A DNA stretch of 33,149 nt from an uncultured Bacteroidales bacterium (GTDB lineage: Bacteria > Bacteroidota > Bacteroidia > Bacteroidales > Muribaculaceae): NCBI GenBank assembly GCA_945829225.1, contig CALZTY010000026.1, positions 1-33,149 on the forward strand. Direction: 5' to 3'. Made by a program: the position numbers and the translations under genes. The notes under the pieces were generated by a model. That model saw only the letters and a program-made list of their open reading frames with translations. It was not told the DNA's origin and made no database searches. This document shows positions 28,084 to 33,149 of this stretch, piece after piece; the first letter of the stretch is position 1; each line of letters starts with the position of its first letter.

Positions 28084-29165
28084 GGTTTGATATTTTTGCG
28101 TATGACCACCTTGGTGGCTCCGAAGCCATACTCGCGGAATGAGGCATCGCTGACATCGTGTCCCTTGTATCGGTGGGTGAGTTCCTTGGTAAGTGCTTGA
28201 CGCAGAACGCCTTCGCCCTTGCCGTGGATGAATATGATGACGCGCCCGGGGTGGTTGAGGTTCTCGTCCATGACACGGCGGAAGGTGTCAATCTGGTAGT
28301 TGAGGATGTCGGCGCGGCTCAGTCCGGCAGTAGTGTCGAGGAGAGCCGAAGCGTGGAGGTCTACTTCGAGGGGCGCGTTAGGGTCAGCCTTGGGCTGGTG
28401 AGGCTTGGGCTTGGGAGCGTCGATGCGAGTCTTTTGGGCAATGGCTTGCTCGAGAGCCTTGGGGTCAACGGTGATGGGCGCTCCTTGTGTGACATCATCC
28501 TTGACCACGTCGATTGCCAATACCGGACCATCGAAGTAGGGGTTGGATGTGAAGCAATGGAGTCGAGCAAATTTTGTGACATCGAGGCGATGCTCATAGG
28601 CTACAGGGGCTTTGAGAGTGTATGCGCCGGCGGTCTTGAACGGTAGGGCTTGCACGGCGATACGGTCGATGTCGGGCAGGTCGGCAACGGTCAACTCAAA
28701 GAGAAATTCTTGGATTTGGGGCTCAATCATGCCGCGGAAGCGCAGCGTCCAGCGCTCGTCGTCGCGCGAGCGAGTAGCTACGGTGAGCCACAGGCAGTAG
28801 TTGGAGTCGTTGACCAAGGAGGCATCGAATGAGGTGTCGCTCAGTCGCTTGATGTTGTCGGGCTCGAAACCGAGGACGATGTTGAGGTGCTCGCCCTCGG
28901 CGGTCTCAACAACCGGCTCCAATTGTGGCTCCGGGGCTTTGGCTGCAGGCTTCACCGGCTCGGGAGTCGGCTCGGGAGCCTTGGTGCCGGGGCGTTCTAC
29001 CTTATAAAAAGAGTCGGAGGTGCCCACCACGACACACTCGCTCACCAAGACAGGCGTCTCGAAGCCGTCTTCATCCACATATGCCGTGCGCCCGTCGATG
29101 CGGACGACGCGACCGCCGCCCACGCTGTTGAGAAAGCGCACTTGGTCTCCTATTTTTACATTCAT
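28080..29165 (-). CDS. DUF2027 domain protein with C-terminal Smr domain
   Basis: The chosen start gives 361 residues. The N-terminus (MNVKIGDQVRFLNSVGGGRVVRI) looks like a small SH3-like beta domain, then a Pro/Ala/Glu-rich linker (about residues 55-85) and the DUF2027 beta domain. The C-terminal 85 residues form an Smr domain with VDLHAS and the IFIHGKGEGVLR motif. Smr domains in MutS2-like proteins have nuclease or DNA/RNA-binding activity; the role of this short Bacteroidetes form is not established. A longer reading to 29330 is rejected: it would run into mltG, and a -7 box sits at 29183-29190. Confidence 0.88.
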   Translation of the reverse strand: MNVKIGDQVRFLNSVGGGRVVRIDGRTAYVDEDGFETPVLVSECVVVGTSDSFYKVERPGTKAPEPTPEPVKPAAKAPEPQLEPVVETAEGEHLNIVLGFEPDNIKRLSDTSFDASLVNDSNYCLWLTVATRSRDDERWTLRFRGMIEPQIQEFLFELTVADLPDIDRIAVQALPFKTAGAYTLKAPVAYEHRLDVTKFARLHCFTSNPYFDGPVLAIDVVKDDVTQGAPITVDPKALEQAIAQKTRIDAPKPKPHQPKADPNAPLEVDLHASALLDTTAGLSRADILNYQIDTFRRVMDENLNHPGRVIIFIHGKGEGVLRQALTKELTHRYKGHDVSDASFREYGFGATKVVIRKNIKP

Positions 29166-29182
29166 AGTCCTTAATTTTTTTG

Positions 29183-29190
29183 CAAAATTA
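29183..29190 (-). promoter_or_regulatory. -7 promoter box (TAATTTTG) for the DUF2027-Smr gene
   Basis: On the minus strand TAATTTTG lies 17 nt upstream of the ATG at 29165. No -33 TTTG is found at normal spacing. It fixes the start of the gene and pairs divergently with the mltG promoter. Confidence 0.5.
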
Positions 29191-29212
29191 CGCATAATAG
29201 TTTTAAAACGCT

Positions 29213-29220
29213 TAACTTTG
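29213..29220 (+). promoter_or_regulatory. -7 promoter box (TAACTTTG) for mltG
   Basis: TAACTTTG lies 14 nt before the mltG ATG at 29235, predicting a leader of only about 8 nt. The -33 region is not recognisable. Confidence 0.5.
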
Positions 29221-29234
29221 CAAAAAAAAGAACG

Positions 29235-30257
29235 ATGAAAAAAGCGATAAAGTTGATAATAGGCTTGATAGCAGTGGCATTGATAGGGCTCATTGCCGGC
29301 GCAGTGTGGCTGTGGTCTACTATCGAGCATTACGAGGGTGAGCCGGTGCGTATCTACATACCCGCCGGGTCTGATGCAGAGGCAATCCGCGACAGCCTTA
29401 TAAGCGCCACGGGTGAGGATTTTGGCTCGTCGGCAGCGCGACTATGGGGGCTGATGCGGTCCAGGGCATCGATGGCGCATGGCTCGTATGTTGTCGAGCA
29501 GGGCGAGAGTTCGTGGGATGTGGCTCGCCGACTGCGCAACGGGCGCCAGAACCCTGTCAAGGTCGTTATCAACAATATGCGCACCATCAACGACTTAGCC
29601 GACCGTGTGGCGGCTCGCTTGGAGACTACTCCCGAGGCTATCCTCGTCGCTATCGATAGCGTGGTGGGCGCCGAGGAGGAATTTGCTGCGCCGGAGACCT
29701 ATCCTGCAGCGTTTATGCCCGATAGTTATGAATTCTATTGGACCGAGAAGCCCGAGAATGTGGTGGCGACTCTGTTGATGTATCGAAATAAATTCTGGAA
29801 CGACGAGCGCCGCGCCAAGGCTAAGGTATTGGGATTGACACCGATTGAGGTGACAACATTGGCATCGATAGTCGAGGAGGAGAGCGCCAAGCGAGAGGAG
29901 CATGGCACAATCGCCCGGCTATACCTCAATCGCCTTGACCGCGATATGTGCTTGCAAGCCGACCCTACGGTGAAATTTGCAATCGGTGACTTCGGCTTGC
30001 GACGCATCACCAATGTGCACTTGCGGTATGACTCGCCCTTCAACACATATATATATAAGGGCTTGCCGCCGGGTCCGATACGCATTGTGGATAAGCGCAC
30101 CATAGATGCGGTGCTTGATGCTCCGCGCCACAACTATTTATATATGTGTGCCAAGGAGGACTTCTCGGGCTTCCACAACTTTGCTGCCGACGGCGCCACC
30201 CATATGGCGAATGCGCGGCGCTATCAAGCGGTACTCAATCGCCGTGGTATCAGGTAG
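29235..30257 (+). CDS. mltG: Endolytic murein transglycosylase MltG (YceG-like)
   Basis: MltG is an inner-membrane lytic transglycosylase that cuts nascent glycan strands and is thought to end their elongation. The 340-residue protein has one membrane helix (about 7-28, LIIGLIAVALIGLIAGAVWLW). A LysM-like/YceG N-terminal part with GSYVVEQGESSWDVARRLRNG follows. The catalytic region contains LASIVEEES (209-217), which holds the active-site glutamate, then LNRL, MCLQADPTV, YDSPFNTYIYKGLPPGPI and FHNFA. It matches the family's normal length. It ends exactly where the convergent TPR gene ends. Confidence 0.95.
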   Translation: MKKAIKLIIGLIAVALIGLIAGAVWLWSTIEHYEGEPVRIYIPAGSDAEAIRDSLISATGEDFGSSAARLWGLMRSRASMAHGSYVVEQGESSWDVARRLRNGRQNPVKVVINNMRTINDLADRVAARLETTPEAILVAIDSVVGAEEEFAAPETYPAAFMPDSYEFYWTEKPENVVATLLMYRNKFWNDERRAKAKVLGLTPIEVTTLASIVEEESAKREEHGTIARLYLNRLDRDMCLQADPTVKFAIGDFGLRRITNVHLRYDSPFNTYIYKGLPPGPIRIVDKRTIDAVLDAPRHNYLYMCAKEDFSGFHNFAADGATHMANARRYQAVLNRRGIR

Positions 30258-31100
30258 TTATTGAACGAACAAGGATCTAACCTTGACGGGCGAGGCACCC
30301 AACTCGATGGCTCGCTTGGCGTCGCGTTGTGCCTCTTCGAGGCAGTAGCGGTCGCGGTTGAGCCATGCGCGATAGTAGTACAGTTCGGGGTCGTTGGGGT
30401 ACATCTTCATGCCGTCGGTGATGGTTGCCGAGGCATCGGATAGTTCGCCGAGGGCGAGATAGCAACCGGCGAGGGTGGCATAGTACTCGGCTTGCGGGTC
30501 CTCGGCAATGAGTTGGCGCAGGTAGGGCACAGCCAGGCGTTCACGCCCGGTGAGCGAGTATAAGGTGCTGAGAGCCACTGCGGTATCGGAGGTGTGAGGG
30601 GTTACTTGCTTGAGGATGTCGAAGTCTTGCTCGGCGATATCTTGGCGCCCGCCATACAGTGCCATCATGCCGTGGTAAAAACGCGCCTCGGTGGATAGCG
30701 AGTCGATGCGGATGGCGGCATCAAAGTCTTCGTAAGCCTCAAAGTCGCGGTTGAGCGCCAGCAATAGGCGTCCGCGTCCGAGGCGCGACACCAACATATT
30801 GGGGGCGATGTCGATAGAGCGCGAGAACGAGGCGAGTGCCAGCGAGTCGCTGTCGGTGTATGTGTAGCAGATGCCGAGATTGTAATATACCAGGGCATTT
30901 GAGGGGTTTGACGGGTCGACGGCGAGGACATCGTTGAGTCGGTCGACAGCCTCGCTCCAGTTGCCGGCAGCGATGGCAGTGTCAGCCTCGCCCATGAGGA
31001 TGAAGTAGGGGTTTGCCTCCCACAGCGAGTCGACCGCCTCGGTGGCGGCGGCTGAGAATGTCGCCACGCAGGTAATAATATATATGAGTAACTTCTTCAT
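30258..31100 (-). CDS. Secreted/periplasmic tetratricopeptide-repeat protein
   Basis: This 280-residue protein has a signal peptide (MKKLLIYIITCVATFSAAA). Helical repeats of about 34 residues fill most of the remainder, for example NWSEAVDRLNDVLAVDPSNPSNALVYYNLGICYTY, DSLALASFSRSIDIAPNMLVSRLGRGRLLLALNRDFEAYEDFDAAIRID and a final DPELYYYRAWLNRDRYCLEEAQRDAKRAIELG. TPR arrays bind proteins; the partner is unknown. The stop codon abuts the mltG stop with no gap and no terminator between them. It has its own promoter. Confidence 0.88.
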   Translation of the reverse strand: MKKLLIYIITCVATFSAAATEAVDSLWEANPYFILMGEADTAIAAGNWSEAVDRLNDVLAVDPSNPSNALVYYNLGICYTYTDSDSLALASFSRSIDIAPNMLVSRLGRGRLLLALNRDFEAYEDFDAAIRIDSLSTEARFYHGMMALYGGRQDIAEQDFDILKQVTPHTSDTAVALSTLYSLTGRERLAVPYLRQLIAEDPQAEYYATLAGCYLALGELSDASATITDGMKMYPNDPELYYYRAWLNRDRYCLEEAQRDAKRAIELGASPVKVRSLFVQ

Positions 31101-31125
31101 TTGAGTACCTAATGATTGACAGCGA

Positions 31126-31159
31126 CAAAGTTATGCAAATAATCGCCATGAACCTCAAA
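31126..31159 (-). promoter_or_regulatory. Promoter for the TPR gene
   Basis: On the minus strand: TTTG (31159-31156), a 22-nt spacer, then TAACTTTG (31133-31126). The spacer is slightly long. The ATG follows 25 nt after the -7 box. Confidence 0.6.
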
Positions 31160-31227
31160 AAATAACATTAAAAAAAGTTGCATCACCCCTTACAAAGCCC
31201 AAAGTAGCAACAAAGAAGAAATAAAAA

Positions 31228-31259
31228 TTTGTATGTATTCGAAATTTACTGTAAATTTG
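31228..31259 (+). promoter_or_regulatory. Promoter of the AAA ATPase gene, embedded in a palindrome
   Basis: TTTG at 31228-31231, a 20-nt spacer and TAAATTTG at 31252-31259 are a full match to the Bacteroidetes consensus. The -7 box is the exact centre of the 40-bp palindrome at 31236-31275. Transcription would start near 31266, leaving a leader of about 12 nt to the ATG at 31278. Confidence 0.75.
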
Positions 31260-31275
31260 CAGTAAATTTCGAATA
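31236..31275. repeat. Upstream 40-bp palindrome, probable operator
   Basis: TATTCGAAATTTACTG (31236-31251) and CAGTAAATTTCGAATA (31260-31275) are perfect reverse complements around TAAATTTG. The only unpaired position in the 40 bp is T31252/G31259. It ends 2 nt before the ATG of the ATPase gene and covers its promoter core and predicted start site. A matching copy lies at 32557-32600. Confidence 0.95.
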
Positions 31276-31277
31276 GA

Positions 31278-32552
31278 ATGATTATGGCACAGTATATTCA
31301 GCGAAATATTTATCTCGAAAAATTGATAAACCGGCGGGATAATGGAGAGATAAAAATTATAACCGGTCCGCGGCGTAGCGGTAAATCGTGGCTTCTAAAG
31401 CGGTTGTATAGAGATTATTTGATACAAGATGGCGTTAAAGAAGATCACATAGTCGTTGTGTCGTTTGATATGGATGAGTCGTTTGACGGGCGAGACCTCA
31501 CTGACCCGTTAATACTTAAACAGCATCTGTATTCGAGAATTAAAGTTGAAGATGTTGATAATTACTATGTTTTTCTCGACGAGATACAGATGGTCAAAGA
31601 CTTTGAGCGTATCGTCAATGGACTCAATTCACATGATAATATTGATGTGTATATTACGGGTAGTAACTCCAAGTTCCTATCTACTGATATTAATACGATA
31701 TTCCGTGGTAGGGGTGACGAAGTTAGGGTATATCCTTTGAGTTTCAAAGAGTTTTGTGATGGACGGTCAGAATCTTTTAATGATTTGTGGCAGGAGTATT
31801 ATACGTATGGCGGACTTCCGGCTTTGCGAAATCACAAATCTAAGGAACAAAAGATTTCATACCTCAATAGACTATGGCAAAAAACTTATATTGATGATGT
31901 CGTGGAGAGGCATGGTATCAAGAATAGGTTAGCCTTGGAGTGTATTATTGATGTATTGTGCTCATCCATTGGTTCACTAACAAATCCGACGAAAATAAGT
32001 AATACATTAAAGACTTTGCAACATGTTGACATAAGCGTGGACACTGTAAACATGTACTTGTCATACCTTAATGATGCCTTTCTTTTTACTCCGGCTATGA
32101 GGTATAATATTAAGGGTAAAAAGTATTTTAATACTATAAAGAAGTATTACTCAATAGATTTGGGATTGAGAAATGCCCGCCTTAATTTCAGACAACAAGA
32201 GATTACCCACATTATGGAAAATGTGATATTTAACGAGTTGAAAATTAGAGGCTATTTAGTCGATATAGGTGTGGTGGAAACTCGTAAAATGATGGATGGG
32301 AAGAGTACATATAGCCAGCTTGAAGTGGATTTTATTGCGACGGATGGTGTTGAAAAATTTTATATTCAATCGGCATATGCCATCCCGGATGAGGCAAAGA
32401 AAGAGCAAGAACTTGCATCGCTGAAACATATAGACGATAGTTTCAGAAAAATCATTATTGTTAGTTATGATATTGCAACATATATCGATGATAACGGTTT
32501 TGTTTTCATGAGCTTACGACAATTTTTGAACAATGATAAAATTCTATCGTGA
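31278..32552 (+). CDS. AAA-family ATPase with DUF4143 C-terminal domain
   Basis: This is a 424-residue cytosolic protein. Residues 1-210 are the AAA (AAA_14-like) domain, with Walker A GPRRSGKS (30-37), Walker B FLDE with Asp101-Glu102, and a sensor-like TGSNS near 130. YTYGGLPAL links to the DUF4143 region. That region contains a probable winged helix (about 218-275) and a nuclease-like fold with ENVIFNEL (near 314), EVDFIA (349-354) and IQSAY (363-367). The last motif resembles PD-(D/E)xK folds but lacks the usual ExK, so nuclease activity is doubtful. Such ATPases are widespread in Bacteroidetes and archaea, with unclear roles. The gene is visibly richer in A and T than its neighbours, as if transferred. 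Long palindromes bracket it on both sides. A second ATG at 31284 is an alternative start. Confidence 0.93.
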   Translation: MIMAQYIQRNIYLEKLINRRDNGEIKIITGPRRSGKSWLLKRLYRDYLIQDGVKEDHIVVVSFDMDESFDGRDLTDPLILKQHLYSRIKVEDVDNYYVFLDEIQMVKDFERIVNGLNSHDNIDVYITGSNSKFLSTDINTIFRGRGDEVRVYPLSFKEFCDGRSESFNDLWQEYYTYGGLPALRNHKSKEQKISYLNRLWQKTYIDDVVERHGIKNRLALECIIDVLCSSIGSLTNPTKISNTLKTLQHVDISVDTVNMYLSYLNDAFLFTPAMRYNIKGKKYFNTIKKYYSIDLGLRNARLNFRQQEITHIMENVIFNELKIRGYLVDIGVVETRKMMDGKSTYSQLEVDFIATDGVEKFYIQSAYAIPDEAKKEQELASLKHIDDSFRKIIIVSYDIATYIDDNGFVFMSLRQFLNNDKILS

Positions 32553-32556
32553 TATG

Positions 32557-32600
32557 TCTATTTGAAATTTACTGTAAATTTACAGTAAATTTCAAATAGA
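32557..32600. repeat. Downstream perfect 44-bp palindrome
   Basis: Every position from 32557 to 32600 pairs with its mirror: the left half is TCTATTTGAAATTTACTG followed by TAAA, the right half its exact reverse complement. Its inner 40 bp match the upstream palindrome at 37 positions. The central box is TAAATTTA, so the promoter box is lost, and no TTTG lies at -33. It begins 4 nt after the stop codon. As RNA it would fold into a long A/U-rich hairpin, but no T-tract follows. Confidence 0.95.
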
Positions 32601-32644
32601 GCGAGTGGGAAGATTATTTATCGGTCTTATAATTATTATTTTAT

Positions 32645-32675
32645 TTTGATAATTCAAAAATAATCTCTAAATTTG
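32645..32675 (+). promoter_or_regulatory. Consensus promoter with no obvious gene behind it
   Basis: TTTG at 32645-32648, a 19-nt spacer and TAAATTTG at 32668-32675 match the Bacteroidetes consensus fully. The -7 box is identical to the one inside the ATPase palindrome. Transcription would begin near 32682, within a dyad, and run into a region without a recognised coding sequence. Confidence 0.6.
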
Positions 32676-32679
32676 CCAA

Positions 32680-32698
32680 GTAATCTTTAAAGGATTAC
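32680..32698. repeat. Small inverted repeat at the predicted transcription start
   Basis: GTAATC (32680-32685) and GATTAC (32693-32698) are reverse complements around TTTAAAG. It overlaps the start site predicted from the promoter at 32645-32675, so it may be an operator or a 5' RNA hairpin. Confidence 0.5.
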
Positions 32699-33004
32699 AG
32701 ACATAATAGGAAGCGTTTATTCGCGCTTATTCTTGACTCTATCGAAATGTGGCAGTTTCAAGGTCAGTTCAAGAACGATGCGATGATAGATGCTCATAGG
32801 TATGTAAAATGCCCAAGTGCTCTTGTGCGATGTTGCAACAAGAGCATTTGGTGATACATATCGGCGTGAGGTCATCGTTGCTTGTTGAGACTGATACGGG
32901 CGATGCCACATGCCAAGATAGAGCAAGACGAGCAAGGATATGGCTCTCACGCTTTTTTGTTAAAATTCAATGCCTTACCGGGAGCCTATGGGCACTTAGT
33001 GGCT

Positions 33005-33025
33005 TAATTGCAAAAAAGTAGGCTA
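33005..33025 (+). repeat. 21-bp direct repeat, copy 1
   Basis: A 21-bp sequence beginning TAATTGC, with a run of six A and then GTAGGCTA, is repeated without mismatch at 33108-33128, 103 bp further on. The base before it differs between copies (T here, C there). Confidence 0.85.
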
Positions 33026-33107
33026 CTATACCATATAATTATCTATTTTACAATCGCTTACCCATAGTTATTAAATTAGAACTTCAAAAAAGGCCTATTT
33101 TTATCTC

Positions 33108-33128
33108 TAATTGCAAAAAAGTAGGCTA
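33108..33128 (+). repeat. 21-bp direct repeat, copy 2
   Basis: This copy is identical to the one at 33005-33025. A related but inverted-looking fragment, AAAAAAGGCCTATTTTT (33086-33102), lies just before it. It sits 21 bp from the window end, so further copies could lie outside. Confidence 0.85.
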
Positions 33129-33149
33129 AATATTACTGAAAATAATTGA

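Follow-up and report, generated by a model that had tools for sequence, protein, structure and literature searches.

In RAYT-REP and IS200/IS605 systems, one gene lies between two short palindromes that are thought to be recognized by the encoded protein, and solo palindromes also occur. Insertion sequences have terminal inverted repeats. The unit described here lies toward the end of the window, by which we mean the whole 33,149-nucleotide stretch of DNA that was analyzed, from an uncultured bacterium of the Muribaculaceae. It resembles RAYT-REP and IS200/IS605 in being a single gene between two short palindromes and in the occurrence of solo palindromes, but its protein (P0001) is an AAA+ ATPase, and a Pfam scan of it found no HUH/Y1 domain, no transposase domain (DDE included), and no serine or tyrosine recombinase domain. 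In further contrast to RAYT-REP and IS200/IS605, its palindrome is not a dispersed repeat: in its own genome it is found only at the unit, and across 397 genomes of the bacterial family a single solo copy was found. With insertion sequences it shares sharp ends in some pairs of copies, unrelated contexts, and an empty site; it differs from them in its ends, which are self-complementary and may be direct copies, and in that ten units inspected by eye showed no target-site duplication.

The protein itself belongs to a described family, as P0001 matches the PADLOC model for PDC-S01, a candidate single-gene phage defense (PDLC04787, residues 3-420, E 5.8e-114). In the available portions of the two relevant papers, PDC-S01 is described as the fusion of an ATPase with a PD-(D/E)XK member and as the fourth most common defense across prokaryotes, most PDCs still awaiting validation (PMC12988326), and in a rumen survey no other individual locus was as frequent (PMC13356809). 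The family is common to that work and ours, but those portions contain nothing on bracketing palindromes, operators, or one-gene movement, and several units here adjoin housekeeping genes. Among the titles found on DUF4143, COG1373, or PDC-S01 ATPases, a literature in which few subscription papers were covered, none dealt with bracketing palindromes. Within the literature covered, the protein family is known, mainly by name, and a palindrome-bracketed one-gene unit is not described.

The gene, its palindromes, and its protein

The ATPase gene (31278..32552, plus strand; 424 aa) is bracketed by an upstream palindrome (31236..31275, no strand) and a downstream palindrome (32557..32600, no strand). 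The former is 40 bp long, has 19 of 20 complementary pairs, and is followed 2 nt downstream by the ATG (31278); the latter is 44 bp long and perfect, and the TGA (32550-32552) ends 4 nt before it. Their inner 40 bp are the same at 37 of 40 positions. The positions, lengths, and mutual match given in the preliminary description were correct to the base, as was its remark that the gene is AT-rich (36% GC versus 54% for bases 1-31100). By the score used, these are the top two palindromes of the window, and each exceeded 100 of 100 dinucleotide-preserving shuffles of its own 80-nt flank. Within the 2.27-Mb genome the 17-mer core AAATTTACWGTAAATTT is confined to the two palindromes. The contig stops at 33149, downstream of the gene. 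A reading of both palindromes as terminators was ruled out, there being no GC stem with a T-run at either site, and so was tRNA-linked integration, there being no tRNA within 29000-33149.

Likely promoter elements overlap the upstream palindrome. TTTG (31228..31231, plus strand) stands 20 nt ahead of TAAATTTG (31252..31259, plus strand), which lies at the center of the palindrome; the two fit the Bacteroidetes -33 and -7 boxes, the -7 consensus being TAnnTTTG. The final G of TAAATTTG is supplied by the sole mismatched pair of the palindrome, and the perfect downstream copy has TAAATTTA in its place. AATTTG also forms the first bases of the unit shared by two relatives (L301 and L304), and a TATAAT-like box is situated immediately 5' of the palindrome in several members from Firmicutes and spirochaetes. 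Because promoter boxes thus overlap or directly precede the palindromes, the upstream copy, which has similar counterparts upstream of relatives, is probably an operator as well as the left end of the unit; the downstream copy is the probable right end. From the position of this putative operator at a likely promoter, we predict that the gene is likely autoregulated in addition to being mobile.

P0001 exceeds the curated Pfam cutoffs for two domains, AAA_14 (residues 23-160; 112.4 bits, cutoff 27) and DUF4143 (residues 206-364; 57 bits, cutoff 28.1), and is therefore an AAA_14 + DUF4143 ATPase. The AAA_14 domain (31344..31757, plus strand), seen by Pfam, in an alignment of 40 homologues, and in the fold model, contains GPRRSGKS and FLDEIQ, presumably the Walker A and Walker B motifs. 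Residues K36, D101, E102, G128-S129-N130, and R145 of this domain are invariant among the 40 homologues. In the fold model, which is confident (pLDDT 91.1, pTM 0.91), an AAA+ part and a helical part are accompanied by a beta-rich domain at the C terminus. Its top Foldseek match was the archaeal AAA+ ATPase SSO1545 (2fna; E 2.9e-9, TM 0.45 by query length), with Apaf-1, Cdc6/Orc1, and CED-4 ranked below it. The likeness to these STAND/Orc-type AAA+ proteins is one of fold. No solved relative of P0001 was found in the PDB by sequence at an E value of ≤0.01; a PDB search with the alignment gave one weak match (E 0.026).

The preliminary description had proposed that one protein combines ATPase, winged-helix, and nuclease-like parts. 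The ATPase part is borne out by AAA_14 and the fold model. The DUF4143 region (31893..32369, plus strand; Pfam, fold model, and Foldseek) is helical, probably winged-helix-like, and runs into the C-terminal beta domain, the winged helix being our assignment from resemblance to SSO1545. The nuclease-like part comes from one published passage and an incomplete motif: the C-terminal domain (32202..32531, plus strand; alignment and fold model) is PD-(D/E)XK-like according to the available portion of PMC12988326. Among the 40 homologues, E314, E320, E349, D351, Q364, and A366 of this domain are invariant, and the last stands where the canonical (D/E)xK motif has its lysine, leaving the signature of an active PD-(D/E)XK nuclease incomplete. 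Because this catalytic lysine is replaced by an invariant alanine, nuclease activity of P0001 is uncertain; K374, conserved in at least 90% of the homologues, might substitute for it.

Palindromes beside the gene in relatives

We searched for the palindrome without reference to the gene in 397 family genomes, evenly drawn from a larger group and including the window's own, using 30 positions with up to 3 mismatches and the reversed sequence as a control. Eight sites were found in four genomes, seven of them at ATPase genes and one solo; the reversed control had no match in any of the 397 genomes. Two of the sites belong to the window's gene, two bracket a 61% identical homologue (in genome G335), three accompany a 66% homologue (G310), and the last is the solo copy (G126). 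In G310 the palindromes lie downstream, near the start, and far upstream of the gene, and the outer two have exactly 42 bp in common. Near the solo palindrome, tblastn detected no homologue within 1.5 kb, and none was recognized among open reading frames of at least 100 aa in ~2.6 kb on each side. Occurrence of the palindrome at many loci without the gene, which the preliminary description had named as refuting its reading, was therefore not observed in these genomes. A dispersed repeat family was likewise ruled out by the palindrome counts in the window's own genome and in the 397.

Homologues of P0001 at an E value of ≤1e-150 are sporadic, numbering 24 in 23 of the 397 genomes and in 7 of 30 genera. 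Their flanks could be assessed at 22 loci, the window's included, with L122 and L305 left out because they end at contig edges. Matching palindromes were present on both sides at 10 of these 22 (L084, which is the window, L123, L288, L289, L292, L295, L301, L304, L306, and L307); L289 is the G310 locus and L292 the G335 locus, so with the window three of the 10 had also emerged from the palindrome-only search. The remaining 12 have no matching downstream palindrome, and 7 of them have an upstream palindrome scoring at least 9, a cutoff chosen after the list was inspected, while 5 have none. Judged by the second refuting condition of the preliminary description, orthologues that lack both palindromes, the strict form in which the palindrome always flanks such genes on both sides therefore fails, and two-sided flanking stands for 10 of 22. 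The broader idea of a self-contained cassette, made up of the gene and the DNA sites its protein may recognize, is well supported. The palindromes follow the gene and not the genome.

A wider set comprised 80 loci of many phyla together with genus, plasmid, and phage loci, giving 114 loci once L018 (which has no start) and duplicates were excluded. Four were dropped for an internal stop or a length below 350 aa, and dereplication of the other 110 at 85% identity left 82, with 81 upstream and 81 downstream flanks. A significant upstream palindrome was present in 25 of 81 homologues (window included) versus 16 of 209 control genes (Fisher p 2e-6). AT-rich palindromes of at least 30 bp were found upstream of 19 of 81 homologues versus 6 of 209 controls, and downstream of 8 of 81 versus 6 of 223, the one class enriched on the downstream side. 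Plain downstream palindromes (p ≤ 0.01) were not enriched in this set, with 15 of 81 homologues and 34 of 223 controls. With the window excluded, the density of AT-rich palindromes beside the gene was 28 times that of the remaining DNA of the 81 loci, which includes coding DNA.

Upstream similarity also tracks protein identity. Across 80 loci, with phyla assigned by hand, the Spearman coefficient was 0.17 for all pairs and 0.15 for cross-phylum pairs, with 0 of 500 permutations as high in each case; the signal comes chiefly from pairs above 60% identity. For the downstream 55 nt, similarity did not track protein identity in these 80 loci. Subfamilies of the ATPase have palindromes of their own. 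A paralogue in the window's own genome (L085) is flanked by 71-bp direct repeats containing a different palindrome, which has no other site in that genome at up to 3 mismatches. In the sister species G026, L142 and L143 have their own far-upstream and downstream palindromes, L143 also has one near its start, and L139 lies between 48-bp direct repeats. All four thus have other palindromes on both sides, as direct or as inverted copies.

Copies, ends, and vacant sites

In the subfamily of P0001, unrelated loci carry copies of the unit that end at the palindromes or close to them. L298, L301, and L304 are 96 to 97% identical units in three species of one genus, and blastn found nothing common to their flanks save 37 bp beside L298 and L304. 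Between L301 and L304, similarity begins with the promoter box, which is 8 nt ahead of the upstream palindrome, and stops exactly at the outer edge of both downstream palindromes. Among seven listed pairs in which both members have a matching downstream palindrome (drawn from L123, L295, L301, L304, and L306), similarity stops no more than 3 bp from that outer edge in five; the exceptions are L123/L301, which extends 11 to 12 bp beyond the palindrome, and L301/L306 (80% identical), which ends 4 nt short of the gene end. Like units with defined ends at unrelated loci, as expected of mobile units generally, were thus found in L298/L301/L304 and in L123/L304.

The ends are unequally sharp in other members. 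In L298, which has no downstream palindrome, similarity stops 3 to 4 bp past the stop codon; in the wider set, L004/L007 (94%), where no downstream palindrome is clear, are similar from -48/-51 to +51; similarity stops no more than 3 bp from the stop codon in L009/L010, L073/L076, and L056/L059; and in L032/L034 it continues further.

Four sister species do not have the unit at one of its insertion sites. In G335 the unit is flanked on the left by a hexapeptide-repeat gene and on the other side by a PAP2 gene (both by Pfam), ~1.9 kb apart. In G294, G305, G260, and G349 the same two genes adjoin, with 121 to 172 bp between the matched stretches, so the site is vacant there, not to nucleotide exactness. 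Among 27 sister loci of the left-hand gene, 21 had no PAP2 match and two more differed in spacing or orientation. Because the G335 insert also holds, by eye, a ~310-bp duplication and another palindrome, a single clean event does not account for it. The G374 unit has recA on one side and a peptidase-like gene on the other; at this place two kinase-like genes are present in G425 and G326 (identified by eye, except for recA). The unit therefore replaced or displaced DNA there, and a simple insertion at this site was ruled out. The comparison of empty sites proposed in the preliminary description gave a vacant site for G335 and no simple insertion for G374. Elsewhere no empty site was found for L085 beside gltX, its left flank matching none of 29 loci compared, or for the flanks of phage MT835483 in five records; in the relatives examined for L143, the left and right flanks fall on separate contigs.

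A solo palindrome of the L143 type (L216, at G043:C1:90670-90717) lies between two convergent genes. No significant ATPase match was found within 5 kb of it, and no copy was seen next to the matching right-hand gene of 22 sister loci.

Other arrangements were also noted. L295 has a direct repeat of ~185 bp (-340..-157 and +15..+200 of the gene) that holds the terminal palindrome and adjacent DNA on both sides of the unit. L075 and L077 are nested arrays (-2236 to +1394 of the gene) in which three terminal-type palindromes with a common leader accompany a near-start palindrome, and a second DUF4143 ATPase lies on the other strand between two terminal-type palindromes; in L075, a further near-start palindrome is followed by an ATPase-like start that has decayed. 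A 2,630-bp circular Prevotella nigrescens 'plasmid' (L148, the whole of NZ_CP133466.1) has just two annotated genes, for the ATPase and for a fragment of a methylase. It is identical to part of a 568-kb replicon (L149), in which the ATPase lies between methylase genes next to an Mpi-type invertase, and is either an excised circle or an assembly product.

Interpretation of the unit and further members

Taken together, we read ~31226-32600 as a compact single-gene mobile unit whose ATPase would recognize its own palindromes, and we put the probability of this reading at roughly 0.6. Its order is a promoter/operator palindrome, one ATPase gene, and a terminal palindrome. The ATPase, with its SSO1545- and Orc/Cdc6-like AAA+ core, may bind the palindrome as a symmetric oligomer. 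Binding to the upstream copy would repress its own promoter, and binding at both ends would pair them, leading to excision, copying, or insertion of the unit. The C-terminal nuclease-like domain or recruited host recombination could serve as the catalyst, and solo palindromes would be remnants left after loss of the gene between two copies. Of the three options in the preliminary description (a selfish or mobile unit, an autoregulated defense or stress ATPase, and a DNA-looping switch), the mobile unit gains the most evidence, from like units at unrelated loci and from the vacant site. A bolder version, which we hold as tentative, makes the ATPase the mobilizing enzyme of a new class of one-gene elements, in which an Orc/STAND-type AAA+ protein would pair cognate palindromes, possibly as cruciforms, and move them by its PD-(D/E)XK-like domain; much of PDC-S01 would then be a selfish element whose protein and palindrome change together.

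Were the palindromes sites of a host or phage system, acting through cruciform resolution, replication slippage, or single-strand annealing, the ATPase gene would simply be carried along. Direct copies would recombine in this way, and the duplicated flanks of L295 (185 bp) and G335 (~310 bp), the nested arrays of L075 and L077, and the lack of a recombinase domain in the Pfam scan all fit; yet a generic host system does not predict palindromes that are peculiar to each subfamily and found almost only with the gene, and we consider this account possible but doubtful. That they are ordinary intergenic palindromes, terminators or chance occurrences beside a common ATPase gene, is very improbable. 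Control genes do have downstream palindromes too (34 of 223 at p ≤ 0.01), but those at issue here are AT-rich, have no T-run after a GC stem, are alike in sequence on both sides, are gene-specific in the 397 genomes, and belong to a class of AT-rich palindromes 28 times denser beside the gene, coding DNA being part of the remainder.

It is unlikely, in our estimate, that the unit is simply an autoregulated antiphage gene of PDC-S01, with palindromes that are operators only, a downstream copy that aids repression by looping or blocks read-through, and a distribution owed to ordinary horizontal transfer of a useful gene. The strong PADLOC match (E 5.8e-114) suggests such a role, as do an AbiD-like gene adjoining the L304 unit and methylase genes adjoining the P. 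nigrescens copies. An upstream palindrome that overlaps the likely promoter, covaries with the protein, and is more frequent than the downstream one is what operators would give. Yet this explanation offers no account of why units in unrelated surroundings should lose similarity where the downstream palindrome has its outer edge, nor of solo palindromes. The neighbors also tend to count against it: those of the subfamily include recA, lepA, lpxA, lptB, a topoisomerase IV/gyrase A-like gene, and peptide deformylase. Of eight neighbors scanned with NCBIfam, seven were housekeeping or metabolic (two of them below the curated cutoff) and one had no match, and one of nine other neighbor proteins matched a defense model. 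A mobile immune gene, for which defense and mobility both hold, is conceivable. Should the members of PDC-S01 prove to be mobile units bounded by palindromes, counts of immune systems would need rereading, and the family offers natural protein-site pairs for the study of DNA recognition and mobilization by AAA+/nuclease-like proteins.

Several observations concern more distant or incidental sequences. No close relative was found in IMG/VR, where six candidate stretches proved by tblastn not to be relatives, and one Acinetobacter plasmid locus, of a distant subfamily, had no matching palindrome pair. Plasmid records with a homologue numbered 232, of which 174 were from Acinetobacter; the Acinetobacter entries among the matches listed are ~35% identical to P0001. 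A distant member of ~34% identity (L138, at G002:C23) lies between two ~99-bp direct repeats with a hairpin. A 54-bp stretch beside the L085 palindrome (L085 2816-2869) recurs elsewhere in the same genome, at G000:C6:13846-13899, and four further genomes of this genus contain it as well. At the contig end of the window, an exact 21-nt direct repeat, TAATTGCAAAAAAGTAGGCTA, occurs at 33005-33025 and 33108-33128, 103 nt apart.
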